64,000 nt of DNA from an uncultured SAR86 cluster bacterium (GCA_902558395.1 CACEDS010000003.1:220920-284919), one strand, 5' to 3'. Positions 30,393 through 55,366 are shown, numbered from the stretch's first letter. The notes: a model not told the origin generated them from the letters alone. Numbers and translations: made by a program.

Positions 30393-30420
30393 AAAAAAGG
30401 GCTATTTTTAGCCCTTTTTT
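30393..30420. terminator. Bidirectional intrinsic terminator
   Basis: AAAAAAGGGCTATTTTTAGCCCTTTTTT between convergent genes; it contains the stop codon of the minus-strand gene. Confidence 0.85.
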
Positions 30421-33276: not shown

Positions 33277-34086
33277 CTATAAGACCAATCCAAATAAAGA
33301 AAGTTCAAAAAATTTTATTAATAAATAAATTAATAATCCAATTATGAATCCTGATCCTAATGGTAGTTCCTCTTTTAAATCATATTTACCAATTAACCCC
33401 AGAAATAATGTTGATAATGAGCCTATAAAAATAACTGGTCCTAAACTAATTGGTCCAACCAAAGAACCTATACCACCTAGAAGTAAAAAATCGCCTCCGC
33501 CAATTCCATCTTGTTTTTTTAAAAATTTAAAACAAAAGTTTATAAGCCATAAAACAGAATAACCAACAATAAAGCCATATAAAGAAAGTTCAAATTGTGA
33601 TGTTCTTAAGATATTAAAAGTATCTATATTAAATATATTTCCATAATATGCTGTGGATAGACCTATTATTGAAATCGATAAATTTAAGTAAAAAGGTATA
33701 TAAAATTTTTCTATGTCACATATAAAAAGAATATAAAAAATAGAAAATAAGATATAAATTAAAATTGAAAATAAATTTATATTAAAAAGAAAGTATATTG
33801 ATAGACCCGCAACTAGATGAACGACTTCATGAAGAGGGTATTTATAGGAAATAGCTACTTTACAGTTAATGCATTTACCTTGTTGAATTAAAAAACCAAA
33901 CAGTGGGATTAAATTTATTAAAGAAATACTTTTCTTACATTCAGGACAATGAGATCTTGGAGTAAATAAATTAAGCTTAGCATCAGTAAATTCCATTAAG
34001 ATTAATCTATATATAACAACAGAACTAAAGCTTCCGATAGAGAGAAATAACAAGATTAGAAAAAATAAAAAAATTAATTCCATCAA
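33277..34086 (-). CDS. Prepilin peptidase (type IV leader peptidase)
   Basis: HCPECKKSISLINLIPLFGFLIQQGKCINCK zinc-type CxxC pairs, PLHEVVHLVAG, GGGDFLLLGGIG catalytic region. Confidence 0.93.
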   Translation of the reverse strand: MMELIFLFFLILLFLSIGSFSSVVIYRLILMEFTDAKLNLFTPRSHCPECKKSISLINLIPLFGFLIQQGKCINCKVAISYKYPLHEVVHLVAGLSIYFLFNINLFSILIYILFSIFYILFICDIEKFYIPFYLNLSISIIGLSTAYYGNIFNIDTFNILRTSQFELSLYGFIVGYSVLWLINFCFKFLKKQDGIGGGDFLLLGGIGSLVGPISLGPVIFIGSLSTLFLGLIGKYDLKEELPLGSGFIIGLLIYLLIKFFELSLFGLVL

Positions 34087-37775: not shown

Positions 37776-38468
37776 ATGTCGCAAAAAATATTACTTATAG
37801 AAGACGAGCCTGATATTAGAAAAACTCTTGAATACAATTTATCAAGAGAGGGCTTTGATGTTGCATGTGCCTCCTCACTTTCTGAGGGTAAAAACTATAT
37901 AAACGCTGATCAATTTTCTTTAATTTTGCTTGATCTGATGTTACCTGACGGCTCGGGGTTAGATTTATGCCGAGAGTTGAAATCAGATTCAGAAAAAAAG
38001 ACCACTCCAATAATCATACTTACTGCTAAAGATGATGAAGTTGATAAAGTTGTTGGTTTTGAATTGGGTGCTGATGACTATGTTACTAAGCCATTTAGTG
38101 TTAGAGAATTAATATTAAGAGTAAAAGCGGTTTTAAAAAGAGGTAATCAAAAATCAGCAAATCTTGAAGTACAAAGGCAATTTGGTGATTTAGTAATTGA
38201 TGTAGATTCTCATGAGGTATTTGTTGATAATGAATCTATTACATTAACAGCCTTAGAATTTAAACTTTTGCGCCAATTGGTTGATCGAAGGGGAAGGGTT
38301 CAATCAAGAGACCAATTATTATCTGATGTTTGGGGTTATAGCGCTGATGTAACAACCAGAACAGTTGATACTCATATTAAAAGACTCAGAGAAAAACTTG
38401 GAGTCATGGGTAAATATGTTCAAACTATCAGAGGTGTGGGTTACAAATTTTCAAGAACACCTGAGTAA
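37776..38468 (+). CDS. phoB: PhoB-type response regulator
   Basis: Receiver ILLIEDEPDIRKTLEYNL, LLDLMLPDGSGL, ADDYVTKPFSVRELILR; OmpR-type wHTH LTALEFKLL...RTVDTHIKRLREKLG. Confidence 0.88.
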   Translation: MSQKILLIEDEPDIRKTLEYNLSREGFDVACASSLSEGKNYINADQFSLILLDLMLPDGSGLDLCRELKSDSEKKTTPIIILTAKDDEVDKVVGFELGADDYVTKPFSVRELILRVKAVLKRGNQKSANLEVQRQFGDLVIDVDSHEVFVDNESITLTALEFKLLRQLVDRRGRVQSRDQLLSDVWGYSADVTTRTVDTHIKRLREKLGVMGKYVQTIRGVGYKFSRTPE

Positions 38469-38471
38469 TTT

Positions 38472-40244
38472 ATGGGTATAAGAACCCGCATCTTTTTATT
38501 AATATTCTTATCGCTATCAATAAGCATTACTATTTCATATATTATTGCTGAGAGAGATTTAACAAATACATTTGAAGAACAAATCTTAGATCAATTGGAG
38601 AAACAAGCATCACTGCTAGTTGAATATATTGATGAAGTAGACTCGCTTCAAGAAAATAATAATGCTGATTCCATTGCTGATAGACTTGGAAATGCATCAA
38701 ACTCAAGAGTTACATTAATTTTAAATAATGGAAGGGTAATAGGTGATTCATATATTGATGAAAATCAAATCGACTTATTGGAAAATCATAGCGATAGAGA
38801 AGAATTTATTGAGGCACTGCAAACCGGTTTTGGTTGGTCCTCAAGATATAGCAGCTCTGTAAACCAACAACAGCTATATGTTGCAATTAGAGATAATAAC
38901 GAGATATCACCAAATGTCATAAGAATTGCTGTTCCCTATACATATCTTGATCAGGCAATAGAAAGTCTCGATTTATCAATTCTACTCGTTGCTATGGTAG
39001 CTTTATTGGTTGCAACTATAGCTAGTGGAGTTGCAGCAAATTATACCTATTCGAGTATAGCTGAATTAGCAAACGCAGCATCCAATCTTGCAAGTGGCTC
39101 ATTGAAGAAAAGTTCAATCAAAGCCTTACCCACTGAGAGGGTTGATGAGTTTGGTAACGTTGCAAGAAGTATTTCACAAATTTCAGAAGATCTAAAATCT
39201 CAAATTAATCTCTTAGCTAAACAAAGAGATCAGTTTGGTTTGGTTCTTGATGATCTTGGTGAAGGTATTATGGTTGCAGATAAAGCAGGTGAAGTTACAT
39301 ACTGTAATGAGCAATTTTTAGAAATTCTTTCAAAAGAAGATCTTGTTGGCAATCAAATAAAAGACATAGGTATTAAATCAATCCAAAGCTTGTACAAAAA
39401 AACTAAAAGAACAAAATCTGCAGATATTGAATTTGAAATTGAGAACAATGATAGAACAACTAAATGGATTCTAGCTTCGATGAATCAATCAAAAACAACT
39501 AAAGAGTTTATTTTAGTGATACATGATATAACCCAGTTAAGACAATTAAGTTCAATGAGGCGAGATTTCATATCAAACGTTTCCCATGAGCTTAGAACTC
39601 CAGTGAGTGTTATAAGAGCCAATTCAGAAACTTTGCTTCAAGGAGCGTTAGACGATAAAAAACAAGCAAAAGTTTTTTCTAAAGCTATATTACATAACTC
39701 TGAAAGATTATCAGAAATGGTTTCAGACTTGCTAGATCTTTCAAGAATTGAGCACGGCGAGCTAAAATTAATTATTGAGGAAACTGATTTAAAAGAATCT
39801 ATTGATCAAGTAATTGATTCTCTTAAACACCTTGGTAAGAAGAAAAATATTTCTATTAAATGTAATTGTCCAAAAAAACCTCAATTAGTTCTTGCTGATA
39901 AAAAAGCTTTAGAGCGTATTCTTACAAATTTAATAGATAATGCTTTTAAATACAGTGAAGAAAATTCAGTAATTGAAATATCAACCAAAACTCAGAAAAA
40001 AGATGATAATGTTGTTGTAACAATAACGGATAGTGGAAAAGGCATTTCAGATGAGGATAAGCCTTTGATATTTGATAGATTCTTTAGAACGGCTGAAGCA
40101 AGAGCATCTGAAAAAAAAGGAAGCGGATTGGGTTTAGCAATTGTGAAGAATCTTGCTAATAGTCTTAATGGTGACGTAGGTGTAAGGAATGCTCCACACA
40201 AAGGCTCAGAATTTTGGTTTTCACTACCAGTTTCAAAGATGTAA
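38472..40244 (+). CDS. phoR: PhoR-type sensor histidine kinase (TM + HAMP + PAS + HisKA + HATPase)
   Basis: FISNVSHELRTPVSVIRANSETL H-box, NLIDNAFKYSEE, GSGLGLAIVKNLA. Immediately downstream of phoB. Confidence 0.87.
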   Translation: MGIRTRIFLLIFLSLSISITISYIIAERDLTNTFEEQILDQLEKQASLLVEYIDEVDSLQENNNADSIADRLGNASNSRVTLILNNGRVIGDSYIDENQIDLLENHSDREEFIEALQTGFGWSSRYSSSVNQQQLYVAIRDNNEISPNVIRIAVPYTYLDQAIESLDLSILLVAMVALLVATIASGVAANYTYSSIAELANAASNLASGSLKKSSIKALPTERVDEFGNVARSISQISEDLKSQINLLAKQRDQFGLVLDDLGEGIMVADKAGEVTYCNEQFLEILSKEDLVGNQIKDIGIKSIQSLYKKTKRTKSADIEFEIENNDRTTKWILASMNQSKTTKEFILVIHDITQLRQLSSMRRDFISNVSHELRTPVSVIRANSETLLQGALDDKKQAKVFSKAILHNSERLSEMVSDLLDLSRIEHGELKLIIEETDLKESIDQVIDSLKHLGKKKNISIKCNCPKKPQLVLADKKALERILTNLIDNAFKYSEENSVIEISTKTQKKDDNVVVTITDSGKGISDEDKPLIFDRFFRTAEARASEKKGSGLGLAIVKNLANSLNGDVGVRNAPHKGSEFWFSLPVSKM

Positions 40245-40287
40245 CAAAACCTCAACTTACTGTTACAGTAAATTAGCATTAATTAAC
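40240..40287 (+). promoter_or_regulatory. Phased half-site array upstream of the lipoprotein gene, candidate Pho box cluster
   Basis: TGTAAC (40240), CTCAAC (40251), TGTTAC (40261), ATTAGC (40272), ATTAAC (40282); spacings 11, 10, 11, 10. Confidence 0.4.
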
Positions 40288-40357
40288 ATTTTCTCCTTAT
40301 TAACTTTTCAATAGTTGGTTTAAATATATGCATATTTTTCTTGGAGGAGAATAATTT

Positions 40358-43312
40358 ATGTTCACTAAATCAATTAAAAATTCATTTTTTTTAACATCTA
40401 TATTTTTGCTTGCCGCATGTGGTGGTGGAGGAGATACATCTATAGCATCACCTGGAGAGTTGGGTCCTTTATCAGATCCATCTGGAGGTGGTGGTAGCAC
40501 CGGTGGTTCAAACAGTAATGTACTTACAGGTTCATGCCCTGATTCTGAATTTATACAAGTAGGTTCACCTGTTGCGGGTAACAACGTATGTGCAATTCAA
40601 GGCCCAATAACTGGTGAATTAACATTAACAGATGATGTTATGTATAGAATGCTTGGCAAAGTTGATATTGGTATTGATATGGGAGGTGATGGCACCAAAG
40701 CTGGTGGAGCATCTGGAACATTAATTATTCCAGCTGGAGTTGTAATAATGGGTAGAACATCAAATGATTATTTAGTTGTTAATAGAGGATCAAAAATTAT
40801 TGCTAACGGTACTCGTTCAGCTCCAATTAGATTTACTCATAATACTGCTATAGAAGGCACAGTTAGTGAAAATGAAAGAGGTTTATGGGGCGGTATTGTA
40901 ATTCTTGGAAAAGCTCCAATTAACAAGTGTTCAAATGACGTAAGAGGAACAGCTGCTTGTGAGAGAGTTGTTGAAGGCTCTGATGCTTTAATGGGTGGAG
41001 CCACACCAGACGATGATTCTGGAAAATTAAATTTTGTCAGAGTTGAATATGCTGGATATGAAATTTTTCCAGGGAATGAACTTAATGGTATTACATTTGG
41101 AGCTGTAGGATCTGGAACTGAAGTTGATTATGTACAAGTTCATAATAATCAAGACGACTGCGTTGAGTTCTTTGGAGGGACAGTCAATGTAAAACATTTA
41201 ATCTGTACAGGTGCAGGTGATGACAACTTAGATATTGACTGGGGTTACCAAGGTAAAATGCAATTTGTTGTTGTTAAGCAATCAAGTGGTGTAGGTGATC
41301 ACATAGTAGAATCAGATAACACTAATTCAGATTCCTCAGTAGGCTATTTAACAGAACCTAGATCAAGACCAATGGTAGCAAACTTTACTTTTATTTCTCA
41401 GGGATTAGACGAACCATTAAAGTACAAAGAAGGTGTTTCTGGAATATACATTAACGGTGTTGTTGTAAATGTTAATTCTCAAAATTTAATTGAGGCAACT
41501 AATTTAGAAACTGTTCAAGATGGTGCCCTTACTCCTAAAATTCAGCATCACAGCATCTTTATGGATTCTGCTGGAGACACATCTCCATTTAAATACTCAG
41601 AACCAGATAGTGAAACAGCTGCTGTTACGGTTGAAGAATTAGAAGCATCTCTTTCATCTAGAGCTACTGATCTTGTGTTAGATACAAATACTTTAGTATC
41701 TGGAATGTTTTTAGGTGATGCAGAGTCAGCTGTTGTTTCTGCTTTTAATGGTGATAAAGTTCAAGGTATGTGTGCAGTAGGTCCACATGCTGCTGGAACA
41801 ACAACCGATCTATGTCCAACATATAGTTCAAAAGAAGGAAGATACATTGTTGATACATGGTTCTCGGCAACTGATTACATTGGAGCTTTTTCTCCAGGAT
41901 CAGATCTTGAAAATAACTGGGCATCAGGCTGGACCATTGGTTTATTTGAAGCACCTGAATGTCCTGAAGGTACCCTGGAGTCAGAAGTTCTATTAGGTAA
42001 AAAAGTATGTAGTTTATCTGGAGAAGTTACATCAGATTTAACTCTTGTAGCTGGAAACTACTATAAATTAGATGGAAAAGTTGCAATTGGAAAAGATATG
42101 GGTGCAGATGGAACAAAATCCGACGGTGTTAGTGCTAAATTAACAATCGAACCAGGTGTGACAGTTTTTGGTGAATCAGGAAATGACTATTTAGTAGTTA
42201 TGAGAGGATCAGATATTCATGCTGTTGGAACTTCTTCGGCTCCAATTATTATGACTGGTCGTCAAGATATTCTTGGAGAAGCAGATATAGTTAACACAAG
42301 AGGTTTATGGGGTGGATTGGTAATATTAGGTCAAGCGCCTATAAACAAATGTTCATTCTCAACTCAAGGCTCAGCTACATCAGCTGGTACAAGAGTTGAT
42401 CCATGTGAAAAAGAAGTTGAAGGTTCAGCTGGCGATACTATGGGTGGCGAACTCCCAAATGACAGTAGTGGATCACTAAAATATGTCAGGGTTCAATATG
42501 CTGGATACGAAGTATTTCCAGGAAATGAGCTTAATGGAATTACATTTGGTGGAGTCGGTAATGGCACAGTTGTTGATTACATCCAAGTTCATAACAACCA
42601 AGATGATTGTGTTGAGTTCTTTGGTGGTACAGTTGATGTGAAACATTTAATTTGTACAGGTGCCGGAGATGATAATCTCGATATTGACTGGGGTTATCAA
42701 GGAAGAATGCAATATGTGCTTGTTCAACAATCAAATGGAGTAGGTGATCATGTTGTTGAATCAGATAACACTAATGCAGATGCAGCAGTTGCATATTTAA
42801 CTGAGCCAAGGTCTAACCCTATTGTTGCAAACTTCACTTTCTTAAGTAGTGGTAAAGATGAAATCTTTAAATTAAAAGAAGGTGTGTCTGGTCAATACTA
42901 TAATGGCGTGGCTGTTGTTAAAGATGATTCTACAAACTGTATAGAAACTACTTTTGCTGAAACTGCTCAAGACGGTGCAGTTACTCCTCATTTTTCAATG
43001 AACTCTGTTGCTATGCAGTGTAACGGTTTTATTAAAACTGATGGCCTTGCTACTGTAGCTCAAATAGAATCAATTGTTAGAGAGGGCACCAATAATCTTT
43101 ACGGCGCCAACTCTGGTGGAGGTACATATGTTAATACACTAAGTGGTCCCGTAAATGGTTCAGCAGAAACTGCTGCTACTGTTACTGCGATTCCTATTAC
43201 TTATAATGCAGATGGTTTCTTTGACACGACTGATTACATTGGTGCTGTTAAAGGAGCAACTGATACGTGGTATAAGAACTGGACAATCTCTGGAACTATA
43301 GACGTCCAATAA
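40358..43312 (+). CDS. Large surface/periplasmic lipoprotein with two tandem beta-helix-like repeats, unknown function
   Basis: Lipobox LLAACGGGG; two homologous halves each with IPAGV/IEPGV...NDYLVV.RGS, RGLWGG.VILG.APINKC, YAGYE.FPGNELNGITFG.VG and HNNQDDCVEFFGGTV.VKHLICTGAGDDNLDIDWGYQG. Confidence 0.85.
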   Translation: MFTKSIKNSFFLTSIFLLAACGGGGDTSIASPGELGPLSDPSGGGGSTGGSNSNVLTGSCPDSEFIQVGSPVAGNNVCAIQGPITGELTLTDDVMYRMLGKVDIGIDMGGDGTKAGGASGTLIIPAGVVIMGRTSNDYLVVNRGSKIIANGTRSAPIRFTHNTAIEGTVSENERGLWGGIVILGKAPINKCSNDVRGTAACERVVEGSDALMGGATPDDDSGKLNFVRVEYAGYEIFPGNELNGITFGAVGSGTEVDYVQVHNNQDDCVEFFGGTVNVKHLICTGAGDDNLDIDWGYQGKMQFVVVKQSSGVGDHIVESDNTNSDSSVGYLTEPRSRPMVANFTFISQGLDEPLKYKEGVSGIYINGVVVNVNSQNLIEATNLETVQDGALTPKIQHHSIFMDSAGDTSPFKYSEPDSETAAVTVEELEASLSSRATDLVLDTNTLVSGMFLGDAESAVVSAFNGDKVQGMCAVGPHAAGTTTDLCPTYSSKEGRYIVDTWFSATDYIGAFSPGSDLENNWASGWTIGLFEAPECPEGTLESEVLLGKKVCSLSGEVTSDLTLVAGNYYKLDGKVAIGKDMGADGTKSDGVSAKLTIEPGVTVFGESGNDYLVVMRGSDIHAVGTSSAPIIMTGRQDILGEADIVNTRGLWGGLVILGQAPINKCSFSTQGSATSAGTRVDPCEKEVEGSAGDTMGGELPNDSSGSLKYVRVQYAGYEVFPGNELNGITFGGVGNGTVVDYIQVHNNQDDCVEFFGGTVDVKHLICTGAGDDNLDIDWGYQGRMQYVLVQQSNGVGDHVVESDNTNADAAVAYLTEPRSNPIVANFTFLSSGKDEIFKLKEGVSGQYYNGVAVVKDDSTNCIETTFAETAQDGAVTPHFSMNSVAMQCNGFIKTDGLATVAQIESIVREGTNNLYGANSGGGTYVNTLSGPVNGSAETAATVTAIPITYNADGFFDTTDYIGAVKGATDTWYKNWTISGTIDVQ
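40532..41956 (+). repeat. Protein-level tandem duplication, unit A of the lipoprotein
   Basis: SCPDSEF... to the end of the first unit; aligns by eye to unit B. Confidence 0.8.
41957..43309 (+). repeat. Protein-level tandem duplication, unit B of the lipoprotein
   Basis: ECPEGTL...VCSLSGEVTSDLTL onward; nearly identical central core to unit A. Confidence 0.8.
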
Positions 43313-43350
43313 ATAAGAGTGATAACAAATAAATTTTATTGGAGAAACAA

Positions 43351-45978
43351 ATGAGAGCAACAATAGAACAACTAAACAAAACAATACATAGAGTAGCTAT
43401 TAGTTTATTACTAATAGCTCCTTTTATGGTTGGTCAAGAAATTGAAGAGGTTGTAGTAAGTGGTTCATTCATTCCTGATGAAAAAAGAGATACATCTGAA
43501 ATATCAGCAATCTTAGATTCATCTGAAATAGAAAGAACTGGAGATGACAACATCGCGGTTGCTTTAACAAGACTTACAGGTTTAAGTTTGGTTAGAGGTA
43601 AATACGTATATGTTAGAGGTTTAGGTGAAAGATACTCTGCAGCAACATTAAATGGCTCTAATTTACCAAGCCCAGAGCCATTAAAGAGAGTTGTGCCGCT
43701 TGATCTGTTTCCTACCCAAATAATTAACTCTTCAGTAATCCAAAAAACTTATTCTGCAGATATGCCAGGAGAGTTTGGTGGAGGTATTATAGAGATTGAG
43801 ACTAAACCAGTACCAACAGATAGAATATTAGATTTTTCTTTTTCTTCTGGATTTAATGACGCTACTAGTTTATCTGATGGCTTGTTGTATGATGGCGGAG
43901 ATGATGATGATATTGGTTATGATGATGGTATAAGAGATTTTCCTGATTCTGTTCAACAAGCTATAAATAGAAATCTTAAGTTAGATCGCTCAAATTTTGA
44001 TGTAGTTGAATTATCAAATATTGGCCGTGAATTCGAGAATTCAAAGTTATGGGTAATTCAAGAAGGTGAGGTGCCATTAGATCAATCATTTAATTTCACA
44101 TACGGTGATGAACTTGATATATCCATTGATGAAATACTAGGAGATTCAAGCGCAACTTTTGGTGTGATGTTTACTGCAGGTATGAGAAGCTCATGGGATA
44201 CACAAGATGGTATTCGTCAAACTGGAACGCTACAAGCTCAGGATGATGGGACTGCAAATGTTATTGTATCTAACGACAAAACATTTTTAAGTACATCAAA
44301 TGATGTTACATCATACGCTATGTCAGTTATTGGTATTGATACAGATTCTTATGAGCTTAAATACACAGGAATGTACATTCATAAAGGCACCAAAAGAGCA
44401 AGAATACTCGATGGTTATGATTCAAGTGATGCTGGTAACGTTAGAGAAGACTTTATAGAGTTTTTTGAAAGAGAACTTACTAATAATCAAATTAATTATT
44501 CATACATGTATGATAATGGAGCTCAGCTTGATTTAAGATTAACTTCTGGAGAAGCATCAAGACACTCACCATATGAGAGAGTGGTATTTTATGAAGATAC
44601 AGATGATAGAGGTTTCTGGAGATATGACGTTAATACTGGACGAAATCAAACTCAGTTTAGTTATGTCGAAGACAACAATGAAAACGTTGGTCTTGATATA
44701 AGCTATCCGATTCAGCTATTTGAAACAGATGCTGTATTAAAAGTTGGATATGATTTAACAGAAAACAACAGAGATGCACAAGTTAGAAGTTATAGATTTT
44801 TAGCTGAAGGTGGTCCAATTCCTCAGGATGGATTAGATAATAGAATTGATTACATTTTTGCAGATAAAAATTTTGATCCATCAAGATTAATTCTGATAGA
44901 GAATACAGCAGCATCATCACCAGCTGGATATCAAGGTGAGCTTACTACTGATTCAATGTATCTAACAATAGATACTTATATTAATGAAAATTATAGACTT
45001 GCTCTGGGTATTAGATCTGAAAATGGTGAGCAAATGGTAAATACATATGATGTATTTCAACCAGTCGATTCAAATATTGAAAAAGTTCTTGATGAGGATT
45101 ATACGCTTCCATCATTTACTCTTACATATCTACCTGAATTCAATGAAAATCTTCAATTTAGATTAGGTCTATCACAAACTATTGCAAGACCAACATTTAG
45201 AGAACTTTCACCGACTCTATTCATAGATGTTGATACAGATCGAGTAATAGCAGGTTCCTTATACTTAGAAAATTCTGAAATAGATAATATTGATTTAAGA
45301 GCTGAGTATTATTGGGGCGATAACCAATTTATGACAGCTGGAGTATTCTTTAAAGATATATCTAAACCAATTGAAGAAGTTGTTAATGAATCAGGTGATC
45401 TGATCGTTACATCTTATCAGAACGTTCCTGGTGCTGAATTAACAGGTATAGAGCTTGAATACGAGAGAGTATTTGAGGATTTATTGCCAAATTCTAATTG
45501 GGGTCAAACTAAAGAGTTTTTATTAAAATTTAATCTTACAGCCACAGAATCCGAGGTTGTATATGGCGCTAACGATACATATGTTAACAGCCAGGGATCC
45601 TTAATAAGTGCTGCTTCTTTATTTGCTAACGGAAGAGACACACGTCTTCAAGGTCAATCAGACTTAATAGGAAATATTCAATTTGGATGGGACGATCTAC
45701 AAAACGGCTCACAAGGAACTTTTATTGTTAACTATGTTAGCGACAGAGTCCGAGCAAGAGGTATAGATGTGCTTCCAGATGTTATTGAAGAACCTCCTTT
45801 ATTAGTTGATTTTGTTTACTCTAAAGAAATTTATTACGATGCTTCTTCATTAAAAATATCTTTAGAGCTCAGAAATTTACTAGATGAAGACTACTATGCA
45901 GCTATGGCATCATCAGTCATTTATGATAAATATAAACTTGGCTCTTCTGTTTCTCTAGGATTTAAATTTAGTTTTTAA
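43351..45978 (+). CDS. TonB-dependent receptor
   Basis: IEEVVVSG TonB-box region, plug YVYVRGLGERYSAATLNGSNLPSPEPLKRVVPLDLFPTQII, barrel ending YKLGSSVSLGFKFSF. ATG at 43351 preferred over TTG at 43339. Confidence 0.93.
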   Translation: MRATIEQLNKTIHRVAISLLLIAPFMVGQEIEEVVVSGSFIPDEKRDTSEISAILDSSEIERTGDDNIAVALTRLTGLSLVRGKYVYVRGLGERYSAATLNGSNLPSPEPLKRVVPLDLFPTQIINSSVIQKTYSADMPGEFGGGIIEIETKPVPTDRILDFSFSSGFNDATSLSDGLLYDGGDDDDIGYDDGIRDFPDSVQQAINRNLKLDRSNFDVVELSNIGREFENSKLWVIQEGEVPLDQSFNFTYGDELDISIDEILGDSSATFGVMFTAGMRSSWDTQDGIRQTGTLQAQDDGTANVIVSNDKTFLSTSNDVTSYAMSVIGIDTDSYELKYTGMYIHKGTKRARILDGYDSSDAGNVREDFIEFFERELTNNQINYSYMYDNGAQLDLRLTSGEASRHSPYERVVFYEDTDDRGFWRYDVNTGRNQTQFSYVEDNNENVGLDISYPIQLFETDAVLKVGYDLTENNRDAQVRSYRFLAEGGPIPQDGLDNRIDYIFADKNFDPSRLILIENTAASSPAGYQGELTTDSMYLTIDTYINENYRLALGIRSENGEQMVNTYDVFQPVDSNIEKVLDEDYTLPSFTLTYLPEFNENLQFRLGLSQTIARPTFRELSPTLFIDVDTDRVIAGSLYLENSEIDNIDLRAEYYWGDNQFMTAGVFFKDISKPIEEVVNESGDLIVTSYQNVPGAELTGIELEYERVFEDLLPNSNWGQTKEFLLKFNLTATESEVVYGANDTYVNSQGSLISAASLFANGRDTRLQGQSDLIGNIQFGWDDLQNGSQGTFIVNYVSDRVRARGIDVLPDVIEEPPLLVDFVYSKEIYYDASSLKISLELRNLLDEDYYAAMASSVIYDKYKLGSSVSLGFKFSF

Positions 45979-46020: not shown

Positions 46021-46422
46021 ATGCTAAATTTTAAATTTCTTAAAAATACTGTTCTAATATTATTGTCATTGATATCTATTTTTTTTGTATATTTATTGTT
46101 CGAATCATATAAGAACACTCCAGTCATAGAGGATATTGGTAATATAACTATTGAGGAATTTATTTCAGAACAGTCGTTAATAAGTGATGAAAATTACGTT
46201 GCAGATGAGTTAATTGAGATTGACTTTAATTACAAGTTAATAGGAATACGGTCTGGAGGAGAAAATTCATCTGTTGTTGTAAAGAAGGCAAATAAAGAAT
46301 ATTTAGTTGTAATGGGCCAGTTATTAGATAATAGATTTGAGCTGGTTGAAGTAAATCAAAATAGCGCTATATTTCGTAATGGTAATAAAATGTATAGAAT
46401 TGATAATGATGAAGAAAAATAG
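46021..46422 (+). CDS. gspC: Minimal GspC-like type II secretion protein
   Basis: One N-terminal TM then a homology-region-like segment IDFNYKLIGIRSGGENSSVVVKKANKEYLVVMGQ. First gene before gspD; no PDZ domain. Confidence 0.7.
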   Translation: MLNFKFLKNTVLILLSLISIFFVYLLFESYKNTPVIEDIGNITIEEFISEQSLISDENYVADELIEIDFNYKLIGIRSGGENSSVVVKKANKEYLVVMGQLLDNRFELVEVNQNSAIFRNGNKMYRIDNDEEK

Positions 46423-46423
46423 T

Positions 46424-48283
46424 ATGAAGTTTTTTAAAAATATAATTTTGAACTTATTTCTGTTTTTTGGAAGTGTAAATGTGTTATTGGCACAAGAATC
46501 TTTTATTCTTAATTATGAGGATGTAGACATAAAAAAAGTAACACAGGATATAGCTCAATTTTCAAAAAAAACAATTATTTTAGACCCAAGAGTTAAAGGA
46601 AGAATAACAATATACTCAAACGCTAATTTAGATAGAAGGCAAGTTTGGGATGTATATCTAAGAACAATTCAAGTAAATGGATTTAGTGCAATTTCTGAAA
46701 ATGGTTTTGTAAGAATTGTTCCTGATAATGAAGCTACAAGAGATAAAAATACCGCATCTGTATCCTCATCAGGAGACTATCAAACATTAATAATACCTTT
46801 AATAAACAGATCAACTGAAGAGGTTCTGCCAATGATAAAACCTATAACGGGTAGACAATCTCATTTATCAAGTATCCCCTCAATAAACTCTATTCTAATT
46901 GTAGATAGATCTAGCAATGTTCAAAGGATTAATGATCTTATAAAGGATTTAGATAAAAATAATGCTGCAAAAATATCAATTATAAAATTAAATAACCTAT
47001 CTGCCATTGAAGCAGTCAGAATTCTTGATAAGTTAAAAGCTCAAAATAACCCTACTATCAACAAATTTATAGCTATACCATTCAATCCATCTAATTCAGT
47101 AATTGTTTCAGCTAATGAATATGTCACTAATAATATTAACGAAACACTCAAATCACTAGATGAGGATGTTAAAACAGATGACTCAATTGATATCGTTTAC
47201 CTAAAATATGCTAAATCTGCTGACATAGCAGCAATCCTTAATTCTGTTTCAAGCGGATTCATACCTGACAATGATGGCGCTAAAACAGTGATAACACATC
47301 ATGAAAAAACTAATTCTTTAATTATTTCATCTGCAGAAGCTAATTTAGCAACTATCAGGAATATTATTTCTCAGCTTGATATAAGAAGGGCACAGGTTTT
47401 GGTTGAAGCTATAATTGTTGAATTATCAGAGACTGCCGCCAGTTCTCTTGGTGTTGAGACTGTTTTTAATGGAACTGATAAAGACAGTGTTCCAATTGGC
47501 GTAACTCGTTTTGGTGGCTCAGGACCAGATCTCTTAACAATTATTGGATCTTCAGCTGATGAAACTGATGTAAATTTATCAACCACGGCTTCAGCATCAT
47601 TACTTAATACACAAGGATTGATAGCTGGGTTTGGTGATTTAACTCCTGGCAAGGATAATTTTGTAGGAATTATTAATGCAATATCACAAGACTCTAATTC
47701 AAATATACTTGCAACTCCATCACTAATGGCAATGGATAATGAGTTAGCTACTTCTATAATTGGTCAAGAAATTCCAATTACTACTGGTGAAAGCTTGGGA
47801 ACTAATAATGCTAATCCTTTTAGAACTACATCTAGACAAGAGGTTGGTATTAAACTTGAGGTAACACCTCAAATAAATGAAGGTAGTTCTGTTGTTATGC
47901 AAATTAAAATTGAGGTTTCCGGTGTTGCTGGAGTTCCTATGAGTGGTATAGATATTATTACAAATAAAAGAGCAATTGAGACAACAGCACTTGTTGATAA
48001 CAATCAAATTATAGTTCTTGGGGGTCTTGTTGATGAAGATAAACAAGATACTATTTCTAAGGTTCCACTTCTTGGCTCTGTACCTATTCTTGGAAGATTA
48101 TTTCAATCCTCTTCCTCAACTACTGTTAAGAAAAACCTAATGGTCTTTTTAAGACCAACTATCATAACTGATTCAGAATCAGCCATGTCTACGTCAAGTG
48201 ATAAATACAATTATATAAAGGCTAGACAAATGTTAACTGGTGAATCTCAACAACTAATCGATTTAACCAATCCAAAAGATTAA
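46424..48283 (+). CDS. gspD: Type II secretion secretin
   Basis: FILNYEDVDIKKVTQDIAQFSKKTIILDPRVKGRITIYS N-domain; secretin core VGIKLEVTPQINEGSSVVMQIKIEVS, KVPLLGSVPILGRLFQS. Start ambiguous (46406 or 46424). Confidence 0.95.
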   Translation: MKFFKNIILNLFLFFGSVNVLLAQESFILNYEDVDIKKVTQDIAQFSKKTIILDPRVKGRITIYSNANLDRRQVWDVYLRTIQVNGFSAISENGFVRIVPDNEATRDKNTASVSSSGDYQTLIIPLINRSTEEVLPMIKPITGRQSHLSSIPSINSILIVDRSSNVQRINDLIKDLDKNNAAKISIIKLNNLSAIEAVRILDKLKAQNNPTINKFIAIPFNPSNSVIVSANEYVTNNINETLKSLDEDVKTDDSIDIVYLKYAKSADIAAILNSVSSGFIPDNDGAKTVITHHEKTNSLIISSAEANLATIRNIISQLDIRRAQVLVEAIIVELSETAASSLGVETVFNGTDKDSVPIGVTRFGGSGPDLLTIIGSSADETDVNLSTTASASLLNTQGLIAGFGDLTPGKDNFVGIINAISQDSNSNILATPSLMAMDNELATSIIGQEIPITTGESLGTNNANPFRTTSRQEVGIKLEVTPQINEGSSVVMQIKIEVSGVAGVPMSGIDIITNKRAIETTALVDNNQIIVLGGLVDEDKQDTISKVPLLGSVPILGRLFQSSSSTTVKKNLMVFLRPTIITDSESAMSTSSDKYNYIKARQMLTGESQQLIDLTNPKD

Positions 48284-48289
48284 TGAACG

Positions 48290-49789
48290 ATGTCTATTTC
48301 GTCCATGGATAGAGAAAAATTTAATATTCTTCCTTATGACTTTGTCAAAGAAAATCAGATTATTGCGTCCAAAGATCCTGATGGTTATGAGGTAATTTCA
48401 CCAAACACTATTTCACCAGACCTTTATCATGAGCTTTTCAAGTTCCTAAAAACTGAATTTGCACTTAAACGAGTCAGTTCAGAAGAATTTAATGAACTTT
48501 TAACAAATACCTTCTCAATTGATGATGCATCTAATGATATATCAGAAGAATTATCTGATGAATTCGATCTTCAATCATTTGCTGGCTCAATTACTGCAAC
48601 TGAAGATTTATTAAGTGGAGGAGATGATACACCAATAATAAAATTAATTAATGGAGTTATTAGCCAGGCTATCAAAAATAGAGCTTCAGATATTCATTTT
48701 GAGCCATATGAAGACAAAATTATAATCAGATATAGGGTTGACGGAATTCTAAGAGAAGTTTTATCACAAGATAGCAAAATATCTTCAGTATTAATCTCTA
48801 GAATTAAAATTATTTCTGGATTAGATATTTCGGAGAGAAGATTGCCACAAGATGGTAGGGTTTCACTTTCTCTTGGTGATAAAAGTGTTGATGTCAGAGT
48901 TTCTACTTTACCCTCATCATATGGTGAGAGAGTAGTTTTAAGGTTGTTAGATAAACAGTCAGCTCAAATAAATATTGATGACTTAGGTCTACCAGAGCAC
49001 ATATTGTCTAATTATAAATCCTCTTTAAAAAATCCTGAGGGAATAATCTTATTCACTGGTCCAACCGGTTCTGGTAAAACTACAACTTTATATGCAGGTC
49101 TCCGATATTTAAGTGACTCTTCCCAGAATATTCTGACAGTTGAAGATCCAGTAGAATATACACTTGAAGGAGTTGGCCAGACCCAAGTTAATTCAAAAAC
49201 CGGATATACATTTGCTAAAGGATTGAGAGCTATTCTTAGACAAGACCCTGATGTTGTCATGATTGGTGAAATGAGAGATGTTGAGACTGCACAAATTGGG
49301 ATTCAAGCAAGCTTAACCGGACATCTGGTTCTTTCTACAGTCCATACAAATAGCGCTATTGCTGCAATTACAAGACTTCGAGATATGGGTATTGAGTCCT
49401 TTCTTTTAGCTTCAAGTTTAAGAACAATAATATCTCAAAGACTTGTAAGAAGATTGTGTTTAAATTGTTGTTTTGAAGAAGATGCTACCAATGAGGTAGC
49501 CAAACTATTTAACTTACCAGCTGGTAAAAAAATATGTAACTCTAAAGGATGTGAGAATTGCTCACATACTGGATATCAAGGAAGGATTGCTATCGCTGAA
49601 TGTATTCAAGTAGATAAAGAATTAAAAGATATGATTCATAATAACTCGTCTGAAAATGAAATTTCAAATTACGTTTTTAAAGACAATCAATCAATAGATC
49701 AGGCTTCATTAGGACTTTTATTAAATGGTGTTACCTCAGCAGAAGAGCTTATTAGGGTTGGAAATTTAAAAGAAGATGCCAACCTATAA
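48290..49789 (+). CDS. gspE: Type II secretion ATPase
   Basis: Walker A GPTGSGKTTTLYAGL, SDIHFEPYEDKIIIRYRVDG, TGHLVLSTVHTNSA, zinc site CLNCC...CSHTGYQGR. Confidence 0.96.
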   Translation: MSISSMDREKFNILPYDFVKENQIIASKDPDGYEVISPNTISPDLYHELFKFLKTEFALKRVSSEEFNELLTNTFSIDDASNDISEELSDEFDLQSFAGSITATEDLLSGGDDTPIIKLINGVISQAIKNRASDIHFEPYEDKIIIRYRVDGILREVLSQDSKISSVLISRIKIISGLDISERRLPQDGRVSLSLGDKSVDVRVSTLPSSYGERVVLRLLDKQSAQINIDDLGLPEHILSNYKSSLKNPEGIILFTGPTGSGKTTTLYAGLRYLSDSSQNILTVEDPVEYTLEGVGQTQVNSKTGYTFAKGLRAILRQDPDVVMIGEMRDVETAQIGIQASLTGHLVLSTVHTNSAIAAITRLRDMGIESFLLASSLRTIISQRLVRRLCLNCCFEEDATNEVAKLFNLPAGKKICNSKGCENCSHTGYQGRIAIAECIQVDKELKDMIHNNSSENEISNYVFKDNQSIDQASLGLLLNGVTSAEELIRVGNLKEDANL

Positions 49790-50972
49790 TTATATTGCTC
49801 TAAATAATAATGGTACAAAGAAAAAGGGAATTCTGAGTGCTTCATCTGAAAGAGAAGCAAGAAGATTTATAAAAGATCTTCAATTAACTCCCATAAGTGT
49901 AACTATTACTACTAGGAGACCTTCATTTAGATCAAAGATAAAAAATAAAGAAATAGTTTTAATGACAAGGCAGTTAGCTACTCTTCTTGAAGCGAATACA
50001 TCCATTGTAGATGCATTAAAAATAACCGCAGATCAATTAAATAATAAGGATCTAATAAGTATTATCCTTAATTTACGAGAGGATGTAATACAAGGAAAAA
50101 GACTCGGACAGTCAATGAAAAAGTATCCAGATGTTTTTAATAATACATATTCTTCTTTGGTTACTGCTGGAGATTCATCAGGAAGCCTTGATCTAATATT
50201 TAATAAGTTAGCAGATTATCTTGAAGAGAGTGCATCTATTAGACAAAAGGTTTTCTCAGCTTTAACTTATCCAATTATCTTAATAGGGTTTTCTATAGTA
50301 GTGATAATTGCTTTGTTAACTTTTGTATTACCGCAAGTTATTGGACAGTTTGTAAAAGCAGGAGCCGAACTACCTTTAATAACGAATTTATTAATAGGAT
50401 TATCAAATAATATTTTTATAATTCTTTTATTTTTAGCCATACTTATTTTTTTAGTTACATTAGGCTATAAAAAGCATGTAGCAAATATTGAAAATCATAT
50501 CTCCGCTCATAAAAAATTATTAAATTTACCTTTGATTGGTGATTTTATTTTAATATCTGAAGTTGAAAGGTTTTCGAGTACCATGGCGCTAATTATGGAA
50601 TCTGGTACTAATTTAGACATTGCTTTAGAAGAGTCTTCGAAAGTTTTTAATAATAAATATTTACATCATGTTGTGATGAATGTAAAAAATGATGTGGTTG
50701 AGGGTAAAGATTTTATTTTTTCATTTAATAAAACAAAAGTATTTCCAAGTATATTTATGCAATTAATTTCAAGCGGATATAAGTCAGGAAATTTAGTAAG
50801 GATGTTTTACAAGGCATCAGATTTTTTAAGAAATGAAATTGACTCCAAAAGATCAGTATTTTTATCGCTCTTGGAACCTTTAGTTATAATTTTTATGGGA
50901 GGTTTTATTATGTTAATTGTTCTAGCTATACTTATCCCTATAATGCAGATGAACACTCTCTCACTAGGATAA
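49776..50972 (+). CDS. gspF: Type II secretion inner-membrane protein
   Basis: MPTYNYIALNNNGTKKKG, MTRQLATLLEAN, TM pattern of GspF. Confidence 0.93.
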   Translation: MPTYNYIALNNNGTKKKGILSASSEREARRFIKDLQLTPISVTITTRRPSFRSKIKNKEIVLMTRQLATLLEANTSIVDALKITADQLNNKDLISIILNLREDVIQGKRLGQSMKKYPDVFNNTYSSLVTAGDSSGSLDLIFNKLADYLEESASIRQKVFSALTYPIILIGFSIVVIIALLTFVLPQVIGQFVKAGAELPLITNLLIGLSNNIFIILLFLAILIFLVTLGYKKHVANIENHISAHKKLLNLPLIGDFILISEVERFSSTMALIMESGTNLDIALEESSKVFNNKYLHHVVMNVKNDVVEGKDFIFSFNKTKVFPSIFMQLISSGYKSGNLVRMFYKASDFLRNEIDSKRSVFLSLLEPLVIIFMGGFIMLIVLAILIPIMQMNTLSLG

Positions 50973-50975
50973 ATT

Positions 50976-51404
50976 ATGAAAAAATATAAAAAAGGTTTTA
51001 CTTTAATAGAGCTAATGGCTGTATTAGTTATACTTGGTATTTTAGGTACTATCGTTGTTATTAATGTTTCTCCGGTTTTCCAAAGAGCAAATTTAGAGAA
51101 AATAAAAGCAGACATGGCTCAAACTGAAAAAGCATTAGAAATGTATAAATTTAATGAACTTCAGTATCCATCTACTTCTCAAGGATTAGAGGCGCTTATT
51201 ATTCCAAATAGTAGCTTAAAAAACCCTTATTTATTCCCTGAGGATGGTTATATTTCTTCTATACCTTTAGATCCATGGGGAAGAGAATATCTTTATGAAT
51301 TTCCACCAAGAAAATCTAAAAAATTTGATTTATACACTTTAGGTGCAGATGGTATGGAGGGCGGATCTGGAGATGACACTGACATCGGTAATTGGATGCA
51401 ATAA
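50976..51404 (+). CDS. gspG: Major pseudopilin
   Basis: KKGFTLIELMAVLVILGIL; QYPSTSQGLEALI; C-terminal GGSGDDTDIGNW calcium-site pattern. Confidence 0.95.
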   Translation: MKKYKKGFTLIELMAVLVILGILGTIVVINVSPVFQRANLEKIKADMAQTEKALEMYKFNELQYPSTSQGLEALIIPNSSLKNPYLFPEDGYISSIPLDPWGREYLYEFPPRKSKKFDLYTLGADGMEGGSGDDTDIGNWMQ

Positions 51405-51888
51405 TCTAAAAAGAGGTTTTACTCTTATAGAGATACTTGTTGTTCTTATTGTAATAGGTATTGCCTCATCATTAATTTTTCTAAACTTTAGCTCAGCAAC
51501 TTCAATTTCAAAAAATCAATCAACTTTTGCTAAATTTTTTCATTATTTATCTGAAGAAAGTATTATCACTGGTAATGTAATAGGCTGGCATGCTGACAAT
51601 AATAATCAATTTTCTTACTCGCTTGATAACAATAATAAAGTCATTTCAAATATTACAAACCCGTATTCTAATAATTGGAAGAATCTGACAAATTTTAAAA
51701 AAACATTTAAGTCATTTGATGGCTCTAAGATTGATTTTAATTTAGACGTCGATGAATCACCTTTGCTATTATTTTATCCTTCGGGTGAAAACTCTGGAGG
51801 CCATATAAATATATATTTTGATAATTATATTCAAATAATTGAAATTAACTCTAATGGAAAAGTCACATCACAAATTATCAACTACTAA
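51373..51888 (+). CDS. gspH: Minor pseudopilin GspH-like
   Basis: LKRGFTLIEILVVLIVIGIA. Likely ATG at 51373 inside the 3' end of gspG. Confidence 0.8.
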   Translation: MTLTSVIGCNNLKRGFTLIEILVVLIVIGIASSLIFLNFSSATSISKNQSTFAKFFHYLSEESIITGNVIGWHADNNNQFSYSLDNNNKVISNITNPYSNNWKNLTNFKKTFKSFDGSKIDFNLDVDESPLLLFYPSGENSGGHINIYFDNYIQIIEINSNGKVTSQIINY

Positions 51889-52240
51889 AAAAGGCTTTAG
51901 CTTAATTGAGATAGTTGTAGCCTTATTTATTCTAAGCACTTCAATACTTGTTTTATATAATTTAGTTTTGTCTACAAGCATATCCATATTTAATTTAGAT
52001 GATTATTACCACTCCAAGGAAGTTGCAAATAATAGAATAGCTCTAATTCACACTATTGAAAAACCATCAATTGGCAATGCTCGCTCAGGATATATGAAGA
52101 TGGGTAGTAAAGAATGGCGTTGGGAAGAAACCTTTGAAGCCAGTGATTCTGAGGAACTTATAAAATATGTAATATTAGTTCAAGAAAAAAATTCTAATCA
52201 ATATTTATATAAATCTGAAGGATTTCTTATTAATGAATAA
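51854..52240 (+). CDS. gspI: Minor pseudopilin GspI-like
   Basis: KKGFSLIEIVVALFILSTSIL; positional order. Confidence 0.85.
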   Translation: MEKSHHKLSTTKKGFSLIEIVVALFILSTSILVLYNLVLSTSISIFNLDDYYHSKEVANNRIALIHTIEKPSIGNARSGYMKMGSKEWRWEETFEASDSEELIKYVILVQEKNSNQYLYKSEGFLINE

Positions 52241-52829
52241 TAAAGGTTTTACAATAATTGAAGTTTTAGTATCACTGGTTATTCTTTCAATGATAGCAAT
52301 AGTATCATCTAATATCTTAAAATCATCTTTAGAGTCAGAACAAGAAACATCTGCACAACTAAATTCAATCAAAGAATTAAGCTTAGCTTCAACCATTATT
52401 AGAAGAGATTTTAGACAAATCGTAAATGCTCGTATGAAAGATTTTTACGGTAATAACCTCTATGGAACTATTATAAATCAGATTAACTCAGATAGTTTAA
52501 TATTTAATTCAAATATTAAATCTATGTCTAATGACGTTTCTCCAATTAAAAGAATTAACTATGAATTAATTGATAATAAGTTGGTCAGAAAACAATTTTT
52601 TTCTTCAAACCCTTATAGTCAAGACGATTTCACAGAAATTGAATTAATTAAAGATATTGAAAATTTACAACTCTCTTTCTTCTATGAAAACTCGTGGCAT
52701 GAATCGTGGCCAATTAGCCTTATAACCTCAAAAAAAATTCCTACTTTGATAAAAATTGAATTTTCAAAGAAAAATAAAGAGTATTCATGGATTATTGATC
52801 CGAACATAACCTATGCATTACAAAACTAA
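52233..52829 (+). CDS. gspJ: Minor pseudopilin GspJ-like
   Basis: NKGFTIIEVLVSLVILSMIAI, IIRRDFRQIVNA. Confidence 0.85.
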   Translation: MNNKGFTIIEVLVSLVILSMIAIVSSNILKSSLESEQETSAQLNSIKELSLASTIIRRDFRQIVNARMKDFYGNNLYGTIINQINSDSLIFNSNIKSMSNDVSPIKRINYELIDNKLVRKQFFSSNPYSQDDFTEIELIKDIENLQLSFFYENSWHESWPISLITSKKIPTLIKIEFSKKNKEYSWIIDPNITYALQN

Positions 52830-53778
52830 AGGAGTTGTTTTAATATCTGTTTTGATGATAGTTTTATTACTTTCATCAGTTGCAGTTCTAATTGGAAACA
52901 ATTATTTTGTTTCATTTAAAAGAGCTCAATATGCTGAATTCCAGACAGTATCTCTAAATATTTTTAGAAATATTGAATCTCTTGCACAAAAAAAGATTGA
53001 TAACGAACTTAGATTTAATTCAAAGATACATGCAAAGAATAATGCATTATTTCTTAATGATTTTATTTTTGAATTAAATAATGGCATTGTTACAGGAAAA
53101 ATTACTGACGCTTCAAACTGTTTTAACATTAATTCTATTGTCACAAAAGTTAAGAATGAATTTAAACCAAATGAAAAGAACATAGAAGTTTTTAAAAAAT
53201 TAATGAGTTTAAATGAAGTCGATTTAAATTTAACAGATGAAGCTATTGATCAAATTATTGATTGGATTGATGGTGACTCTAATCCAAGAGCATATGGTTT
53301 AGAAGATTATTACTATTCTGGACCATTAAACAACCCAAAAGAGTACACAGGTAGTAGATTGTTTTATGCACTTGCTGAGCTAAAGGGTCTTCCAGCTATA
53401 AGAAAGATAGGTTGGAACATTTTTGAGGATAATTTTTGTGTTTTTCCCGACAATATACTTAATGTAAATATAAACACACTTGAAATGCGTCATGACATGC
53501 TATTAGCTTCAATATTTTCAAATATGCCATATACTGATGCTCAATATATATTGGATAATATTCCCGAGGAAGGCTTTAGGGATATTAATGATCTTAAGCG
53601 AGCATTTCCATCTTATGAATTAGATAACGGAAATATGCATATTGAGTTTTCATCTTCAAAATTTACGCTTACCACATCATTTTCATACGAGAATTATGTT
53701 TCAGATTCTGTTAGTAAGATTTACTATGGAGCCAATAATAATAGCTATATTACCTCAAGAATTTATAATGGAATCTAA
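52813..53778 (+). CDS. gspK: Minor pseudopilin GspK
   Basis: KGVVLISVLMIVLLLSSVAVLIG N-terminus, ITDASNCFNINSI, DWIDGDSNPRAYGLEDYYY. Confidence 0.9.
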   Translation: MHYKTKGVVLISVLMIVLLLSSVAVLIGNNYFVSFKRAQYAEFQTVSLNIFRNIESLAQKKIDNELRFNSKIHAKNNALFLNDFIFELNNGIVTGKITDASNCFNINSIVTKVKNEFKPNEKNIEVFKKLMSLNEVDLNLTDEAIDQIIDWIDGDSNPRAYGLEDYYYSGPLNNPKEYTGSRLFYALAELKGLPAIRKIGWNIFEDNFCVFPDNILNVNINTLEMRHDMLLASIFSNMPYTDAQYILDNIPEEGFRDINDLKRAFPSYELDNGNMHIEFSSSKFTLTTSFSYENYVSDSVSKIYYGANNNSYITSRIYNGI

Positions 53779-54927
53779 ATGAACTTCTACATAGCACATA
53801 TTCTTAGCTCAAACCTTGATTTAATTCATTTGTACAATGCAAGTAGTAAAAATGAATCTAAAAAAACGCTCAACTCACTTAGACAACTTGATGACATTGA
53901 TGATGCTGAATTACTTTTAGTTTTAATTCCATCATCGGAGGTTACCTCATATGAATTTATTCAAAATACCTCTTTATCTGAGCAAATAAATATTGCAAAT
54001 TTTATTTCTGATATTGATTCAAATTTTATTGATCCTGTATCTGATAATGAGTATTTTCTTTCTGAAGCAGCAGGATATGTTGTAAACAAAAGTTTTTTAA
54101 CTGAGTTAAATCAATATTTAAGTAATTTAAATTATAAAGTACATGTTACTCCAGAATATCTCATTAATTCATTTAATGATTCTGATTCTATTACTCAGAT
54201 AGATAAAAAATATATGTTTGCATATAAAAATAAATGCGGTTTTAGTATTTCCGGTAACAATCTAAATCAATACTTAGAGCTTGTTGTTAATGACAAGCCA
54301 AACTATGAGCCAATAATTTATAGCTCTAACATTGATTTAAATAATAAATTCAAGTCTACATATGAGAATAAGGATTTTGTATTTCAGGATGTTGACAGTA
54401 CAAAAGTAGAATCTTTGCCTAATTTTTTTAAAATTAACTTATCTTTAAATTTATTTATAAAGAAAATGAATTTTTCTAGAGCACAATTAATCAGTTCTCT
54501 ATTAGCCATATTTTTTATAATTGTTGCTCCCAATTACCTTGTTTATAAAAACAAGCATGATGCTCAACTATTTGTTGATGCTACTTTTAATATTTTTTCT
54601 TCATTAAGCAAGGATATTAATAGGGTGGTAGCCCCCAGGAACCAAATAGATCAGATTTTAGAAAACGTTCCTATGAATAATACACCTGATATTAAGCTTC
54701 CAAACTTAGATTTATTCTTTAAATATGGCGAAAAATATATTTCAGATATTACAGTTGATGTAAAAAACTCCTCTGCAAAAGTAAAGATAAATTCGATGCC
54801 TTCTTTTCAATTTAATATATTAAAAAACGGGGCTGAAAAATTAAATATTAAAATTTCTGAACAAAACTTAGAAACAACAGATGGCAATATTGATGGAGTA
54901 TTAAACCTAAAATATGAAAATAATTAA
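53779..54927 (+). CDS. gspL: GspL-like type II secretion protein
   Basis: Position between gspK and gspM; cytoplasmic domain, one central TM (LISSLLAIFFIIVAPNYLVY), periplasmic ferredoxin-like tail. Confidence 0.75.
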   Translation: MNFYIAHILSSNLDLIHLYNASSKNESKKTLNSLRQLDDIDDAELLLVLIPSSEVTSYEFIQNTSLSEQINIANFISDIDSNFIDPVSDNEYFLSEAAGYVVNKSFLTELNQYLSNLNYKVHVTPEYLINSFNDSDSITQIDKKYMFAYKNKCGFSISGNNLNQYLELVVNDKPNYEPIIYSSNIDLNNKFKSTYENKDFVFQDVDSTKVESLPNFFKINLSLNLFIKKMNFSRAQLISSLLAIFFIIVAPNYLVYKNKHDAQLFVDATFNIFSSLSKDINRVVAPRNQIDQILENVPMNNTPDIKLPNLDLFFKYGEKYISDITVDVKNSSAKVKINSMPSFQFNILKNGAEKLNIKISEQNLETTDGNIDGVLNLKYENN

Positions 54928-55366
54928 TTTATATAAAAATCTTCAAGAAAGAGAAAGGAAACTAGTTCTGATTTCCTTTGTTTTAATTATTTTTCTTATT
55001 CTATATTTTTCATTTATGAATGTTTATTCGAGTTATACCAGGTCCTCAATAAACTTAGCAAAAGCTAAATCAGACTACGAATATGTTCACAATAAAGTTA
55101 AACTTTTTGAAAGTTCCTATAACAAAAAAAATCTTAGCAGTGAGAATATTGAAAGAATAATTATTGATAACAGTTTTCAGGATAATATAACTAATCTCAA
55201 TATAACTGAGAAAAACTCATCCATTTACATAAGTTTCTTATCTACTAATATCAGTGATGCTGTTACTCTTTCAGAAAAACTAGTTAATAGTTCCAATAGC
55301 GAAATAGCTAATATTAAATATGAAAACTTTAACAATAAAGTAAGCGCTGAATTAATATTTAACTAG
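54914..55366 (+). CDS. gspM: GspM-like type II secretion protein
   Basis: LQERERKLVLISFVLIIFLILYFSF, single N-terminal TM, positional. Confidence 0.75.
   Translation: MKIINLYKNLQERERKLVLISFVLIIFLILYFSFMNVYSSYTRSSINLAKAKSDYEYVHNKVKLFESSYNKKNLSSENIERIIIDNSFQDNITNLNITEKNSSIYISFLSTNISDAVTLSEKLVNSSNSEIANIKYENFNNKVSAELIFN

Follow-up and report, generated by a model that had tools for sequence, protein, structure and literature searches.

The arrangement closest to the locus described here was reported by Le Blastier et al. in 2010 for Caulobacter crescentus, where ElpS (CC0170), a TonB-dependent receptor (TBDR; CC0171), and gspC-N are encoded in that order (PMC2996285). The elpS-TBDR-gsp order is conserved in Xanthomonas, Sphingopyxis (Sphingomonas) alaskensis, and Hyphomonas, and the same paper lists homologues of ElpS in Shewanella and Bacteroides (PMC2996285). 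Caulobacter ElpS is induced by phosphate starvation and anchored at the cell surface, from which its release requires the T2SS (PMC2996285). The Caulobacter PhoB regulon includes the T2SS (PMC11208175), and the TBDR gene has been reported as constitutively expressed. In Flavobacterium johnsoniae, two ElpS-related lipoproteins, FI and FII, are likewise induced by phosphate starvation; FI, which adjoins a TBDT, makes up 18.7% of the exoproteome, more than any other phosphate-starvation exoprotein, and FII is located in a phoBR cluster (PMC8115612).

We analyzed a window of 64,000 nucleotides from the 1.29-Mb genome of an uncultured SAR86 cluster bacterium. An ORF at 40358..43312 (plus strand) encodes an ElpS-type lipoprotein of 984 aa, whose N terminus (MFTKSIKNSFFLTSIFLLAAC followed by GGGG) consists of a hydrophobic stretch, an LAAC lipobox with Cys21 (LLAAC, residues 17 to 21, by reading the sequence), and a Gly/Ser-rich linker. 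The protein comprises two homologous units, predicted to be beta-helical, at about residues 57 to 532 and 533 to 984. The units are 54% identical in an end-to-end alignment and share a 38-residue core, HNNQDDCVEFFGGTV.VKHLICTGAGDDNLDIDWGYQG, in which the single difference is N or D at the dotted position. The first-pass annotation had described two homologous units with a near-identical acidic/Asn core, and both features were confirmed. Pfam and NCBIfam scans of this protein and 16 aligned relatives yielded no usable family, and a phmmer search of PDB sequences with the lipoprotein returned no match.

The gene for a dedicated TBDR follows at 43351..45978 (plus strand). The 38-bp gap noted previously between the lipoprotein stop and the TBDR start is exact if the receptor begins at the ATG at 43351; an alternative TTG start lies at 43339. 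The receptor carries a Plug domain (PF07715, E = 2e-6), and its C-terminal half matches part of TIGR01782. Directly downstream is a T2SS operon, which the first-pass annotation missed while describing the lipoprotein-TBDR pair itself correctly. Its genes, gspC through gspM, run unbroken from 46021 to 55366 on the plus strand: a gspC-like gene for a small inner-membrane T2SS component (46021..46422; assigned by position and conservation in SAR86 loci, without a Pfam match), the secretin gene gspD (46379..48283, start perhaps slightly downstream; TIGR02517, 442.7 bits, above the cut-off), the ATPase gene gspE (48290..49789; PF00437, E = 1e-141), gspF (49776..50972; PF00482), the major pseudopilin gene gspG (50976..51404; TIGR01710, above the cut-off), the minor pseudopilin gene gspH (51343..51888; TIGR01708, below the cut-off), gspI (51839..52240; PF02501), gspJ (52233..52829; PF11612), gspK (52813..53778; PF21687 and PF03934), a gspL-like gene (53779..54927; assigned by operon position alone, without a Pfam match), and a gspM-like gene (54914..55366; PF04612, E = 2e-5, just below the gathering score). 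A gspO/PilD prepilin peptidase gene is located at 33277..34086 on the minus strand (PF06750 and PF01478).

A T2SS operon is the defining context of the Caulobacter ElpS arrangement, and the window presents the same succession of a lipobox cysteine, a TBDR immediately after the lipoprotein, and then a T2SS operon starting with gspC. Judged by gene order and by homologues in named relatives rather than by alignment to CC0170, the locus is very probably an ElpS-TBDR-T2SS module. Since the same lipoprotein-TBDR-gsp arrangement was published for Caulobacter in 2010 as ElpS-CC0171 (PMC2996285), the earlier suggestion of an undescribed uptake system fails. The association with secretion genes extends across the SAR86 order, where gspD was present in 44 of 50 genomes with elpS versus 52 of 101 without it (P = 6e-6, Fisher test treating the genomes as independent, with relatedness uncorrected). 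In 35 of the 44 genomes having both genes, elpS and gspD were no more than 20 kb apart.

We examined neighborhoods of ElpS-type genes in a set of 69 fetched loci, analyzed along with the SAR86 loci, for a count of 88. A homologous TBDR of one subfamily adjoined the lipoprotein in 82 of the 88 loci and was its downstream neighbor in 69 of them and its upstream neighbor in 13. Against ElpS-adjacent TBDRs outside SAR86, the window TBDR nearly always scored 208 to 567 bits, the exceptions being three fragmentary or second copies (83 to 125 bits). Its scores against nine other TBDRs encoded in the same genome did not exceed 49 bits; these nine are a sample, as a profile search of that genome lists 15 TBDR matches. 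The dedicated pairing recognized at first pass is therefore strongly supported, and the scores indicate that the receptor has travelled with its lipoprotein.

In profile searches, 24 of 321 Gammaproteobacteria genomes and 51 of 399 sampled Pseudomonadota genomes had the lipoprotein, and members also occur in the Bacteroidota. The order lipoprotein-TBDR-gsp recurred in the alphaproteobacteria Marinicauda, Parvularcula, Indioceanicola, and Sphingomonas, so that homologues with this locus are present in the Maricaulaceae, Sphingomonadaceae, and Azospirillaceae. In Aureibacter (Bacteroidota), the TBDR precedes the lipoprotein and a phospholipase C gene is nearby. A contig labelled as a Bacteroidetes MAG (L043, RFPJ01000079.1) carries a SAR86-like lipoprotein-TBDR pair with 64% identity and is probably mis-binned. 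Across the 88 loci, gspD/E lay near the pair in 28; in 11 others, all gammaproteobacterial and without a nearby T2SS, the pair stood beside genes for DUF3450, two ExbB/TolQ-type, ExbD, TonB, and TPR-like proteins (L113, L116, L124, L136, L138, L147, L155, L162, L177, and L180 carry this module). In Pseudoalteromonas, too, the pair with the ElpS-type homologue adjoins an ExbB/ExbD/TonB energizer.

This recurrence of a secretion machine or an energizer beside the pair would also be expected if the TBDR powered the export of ElpS or a T2SS cargo, or its surface display or release, in which case the adjoining T2SS or dedicated TonB module would belong to the export route. There is a precedent in Oar, which acts in this way on the protease PopC of Myxococcus (PMC6434023), and since Caulobacter ElpS reaches the cell surface without the T2SS (PMC2996285), export or release is a live alternative. 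One-to-one pairing is, however, equally expected under capture and import, and the TBDR has no domain suggestive of export, Plug being the only one found in the Pfam scan. We also know of no TBDR that has been shown to export lipoproteins. On balance we consider this explanation unlikely. It is also rather improbable that the TBDR, together with the T2SS or ExbB/ExbD/TonB, constitutes a TonB-driven system for lipoprotein display in phosphate starvation throughout the Pseudomonadota and Bacteroidota.

The placement of the pair beside phoBR stands: directly upstream are phoB (37776..38468, plus strand; best NCBIfam match TIGR02154, 244.6 bits) and a phoR-type sensor kinase gene (38472..40244, plus strand; PnpS and phoR_proteo profiles among the best matches), although both genes score below the curated cut-offs (296.2 bits for TIGR02154). 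Beyond the gsp operon are genes for a ppx/gppA exopolyphosphatase (55363..56223, minus strand; PF02541), a ppk2 polyphosphate kinase (56223..57062, minus strand; PF03976), a PiT-type phosphate transporter (57192..58436, plus strand; PF01384), and a second TBDR (59188..61725, plus strand; PF00593 and PF07715) that is paired with a phytase (61784..62860, plus strand; PF02333, E = 3e-52). A gene for a PhoD-like phosphatase lies upstream of the cluster (30408-31406, minus strand; PF09423), and a PhoX-family phosphatase is encoded outside the window in the same genome (G000:C2:327536-328666). A same-family TBDR with a phytase was also seen near elpS in SAR86 loci L021, L027, and L028, and a TBDR of that family in SAR86 loci L023, L031, L041, and L111. 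The first part of the window (233-26042) holds a TBDR, SapC-like, cupin-like, Entner-Doudoroff, and GH3-/GH17-like genes, and transporters; by reading, it resembles a cluster for beta-glucan use.

The region upstream of elpS (40245..40357, plus strand) contains repeats resembling PhoB half-sites (TGTAACAAAAC ... TGTTACAGTAA, with 21-nt spacing), the first of which overlaps the phoR stop. In 15 SAR86 loci, relaxed half-sites upstream of elpS numbered 26, compared to a mean of 5.7 expected and a maximum of 14 in 500 shuffles. Because the pattern was picked after viewing the sequences and the 15 loci are related, this enrichment is supportive rather than proof. A scan for a strict E. coli-type pho box upstream of elpS found none.

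Neighborhood statistics for the pair and phoBR, proposed earlier as a check, also bear on the phosphorus link. phoBR precedes the lipoprotein in most SAR86 loci, and where phoBR or the T2SS is not adjacent, the SAR86 pair is usually accompanied by pit, ppk2, ppx, or the TBDR-phytase pair. Outside SAR86, PhoB was found near the pair in 7 of 68 loci; four of these seven proteins were checked against TIGR02154, and all scored above the cut-off. In total, 16 of the 88 loci passed the PhoB test used. In two gammaproteobacterial families that are distantly placed, the pair has an above-cut-off PhoB as a neighbor, with PstS or PhoU alongside in two loci. Since other families also have genuine PhoB next to the pair, we rejected the idea that adjacency to phoBR is an accident of SAR86. 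The pairs were not consistently located in non-phosphate contexts, although most distant pairs lack a recognizable phosphate gene within 20 kb in the stretches fetched. The phosphorus link drawn in the first-pass annotation thus gains support from the surrounding phoBR, ppk2, ppx, pit, and phytase genes, from genuine PhoB in other families, and from the induction of homologues by starvation (PMC2996285, PMC8115612). In seawater experiments, SAR86 bacteria transcribe phoBRU, pst, and pit genes that are responsive to the supply of phosphorus (PMC12981677); literature searches on SAR86 combined with either T2SS/TBDR or phytase gave no paper.

AlphaFold modeled the full-length lipoprotein with a pLDDT of 79 and its C unit with a pLDDT of 85 and a pTM of 0.89. 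When the models were compared to the PDB with Foldseek, the matches were overwhelmingly right-handed beta-helix proteins, none of them close and all with low TM scores. The full chain matched PL6 alginate lyases at E = 1.7e-5 but with TM scores of 0.12 to 0.15, and a single unit matched a polygalacturonase weakly (E = 0.03; TM scores, 0.15 to 0.33). A weak match to the generic Beta_helix Pfam model (E = 0.005) appeared in only 1 of 16 ElpS-type homologues. The evidence therefore supports a right-handed beta-helix as a fold class only: the term "beta-helix-like" used at first pass agrees with the models and the PDB fold matches, although there is no close structural match. Each unit contains a DDxxE and a DDxxD motif whose six acidic residues are invariant in 75 diverse units (a non-redundant set in which units are <70% identical). 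After conversion from unit to protein numbering, these are D266, D267, E270, D288, D289, and D292 in the N unit and D749, D750, E753, D771, D772, and D775 in the C unit. Since the two motifs are spaced 22 residues apart, approximately one beta-helix coil, they may stack as one site.

A beta-helix with invariant acidic motifs about one coil apart might also suit an enzyme, and ElpS could be a glycan lyase or hydrolase that acts on phosphorylated or other polymers, the products of which the TBDR would import. The nearest unit-level fold matches include polygalacturonases, and Flavobacterium FI and FII were modeled on a polygalacturonase (PMC8115612). These fold matches are weak, however, and no profile matched GH28 or any polysaccharide lyase family, so we rejected membership in those families and kept an enzyme only as a mechanistic rival. 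Caulobacter ElpS itself has no phosphatase activity, and glycan activity is unreported in that paper (PMC2996285). We doubt that ElpS works as such an enzyme. The phosphatase data also bear on a role suggested for Caulobacter, in which ElpS activates or anchors at the surface a T2SS-secreted, PhoX-like phosphatase and the TBDR is accessory. Overexpression of elpS raises alkaline phosphatase activity in the supernatant (PMC2996285), and the SAR86 genome encodes both PhoX and the PhoD-like protein. Deletion of elpS in Caulobacter, however, leaves supernatant phosphatase activity unchanged, and this role would leave the strict TBDR pairing and the TonB-module association unexplained; we regard it as very unlikely.

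In a tree of 116 units, the two units of the same protein clustered together in many separate lineages, and 15 label changes were forced. This pattern suggests that either doubling has recurred or the units have been homogenized by gene conversion within the gene. The SAR86 units show one early split, and single-unit versions occur elsewhere in the SAR86 order. We rejected duplication within the species as the origin of the window protein's two units, because the split between them predates the divergence of the SAR86 sequences (branch supports, 100 and 95).

Taken together, we favor, with a probability of roughly 0.55, a reading in which the SAR86 ElpS module combines, for low phosphate, a beta-helix surface lipoprotein, its own TBDR, and a T2SS from the same cluster. 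PhoR-PhoB would turn the cluster on at low phosphate, as shown in Caulobacter, and the acylated cysteine and Gly/Ser linker would tether the lipoprotein outside the cell. Each unit would offer its conserved DDxxE/DDxxD residues as a fixed acidic site, probably metal assisted, for binding a phosphorus-bearing polymer or ester; the Ca2+ put forward at first pass may bridge phosphate ligands there. Because the pairing is strictly one to one, the lipoprotein may then pass its ligand to the adjacent TBDR for import using TonB energy. To this particular sequence of surface capture, transfer, and TonB-driven import of a phosphorus-bearing ligand we give about an even chance. The T2SS would export hydrolases that predigest organic phosphorus and may also be needed to release ElpS from the surface, as it is in Caulobacter.

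ElpS-type lipoproteins are widespread and lack a Pfam or NCBIfam model, even though they rank, where measured, with the most abundant exoproteins of phosphate starvation. SAR86 bacteria are among the most abundant in the ocean, and the ElpS module described here sits inside a SAR86 phosphate island. Tied as it is to one TBDR subfamily, the module is a testable candidate for phosphorus scavenging in poor waters. Laboratory work in Caulobacter or Flavobacterium could start from the TBDR pairing, from the alternation of T2SS and TonB module, and from the invariant acidic site. The useful addition made here is the general comparative pattern of a dedicated TBDR, a T2SS or TonB module, and repeated doubling.

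Several known systems share parts of this pattern. SusCD and PusCD offer a works-like analogy in which a surface lipoprotein is combined with a dedicated TBDT, but SusD, which is alpha-helical, is covered by Pfam models, whereas the SAR86 lipoprotein is predicted to be beta-helical and has none; membership in SusCD was rejected given the lack of a SusD domain (no Pfam match) and the beta-rich AlphaFold model. Oar-PopC likewise has a TBDT paired with an extracellular protein, plus a Ton system, but PopC is a protease rather than a lipoprotein, and the likeness is drawn at the level of description (PMC6434023). The DUF3450-containing module beside gammaproteobacterial pairs resembles TtpC/TonB2 of Vibrio, whose known role is in iron transport; such a module is absent from the window (PMC6957404). 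Flavobacterium FI, FII, and FIII (PUSIII/PUSIV) are reported ElpS homologues that are induced by phosphate starvation in a TBDT (FI) or phoBR (FII) context (PMC8115612), although they belong to the Bacteroidota and have no reported adjoining T2SS operon. Caulobacter ElpS runs at ~50 kDa, which fits one unit rather than the two of the SAR86 protein, and it has not been described beside phoBR, which the SAR86 lipoprotein adjoins. Caulobacter ElpS-CC0171-gspC-N resembles the SAR86 locus in gene order, in phosphate context, and in the lipobox with its downstream linker.
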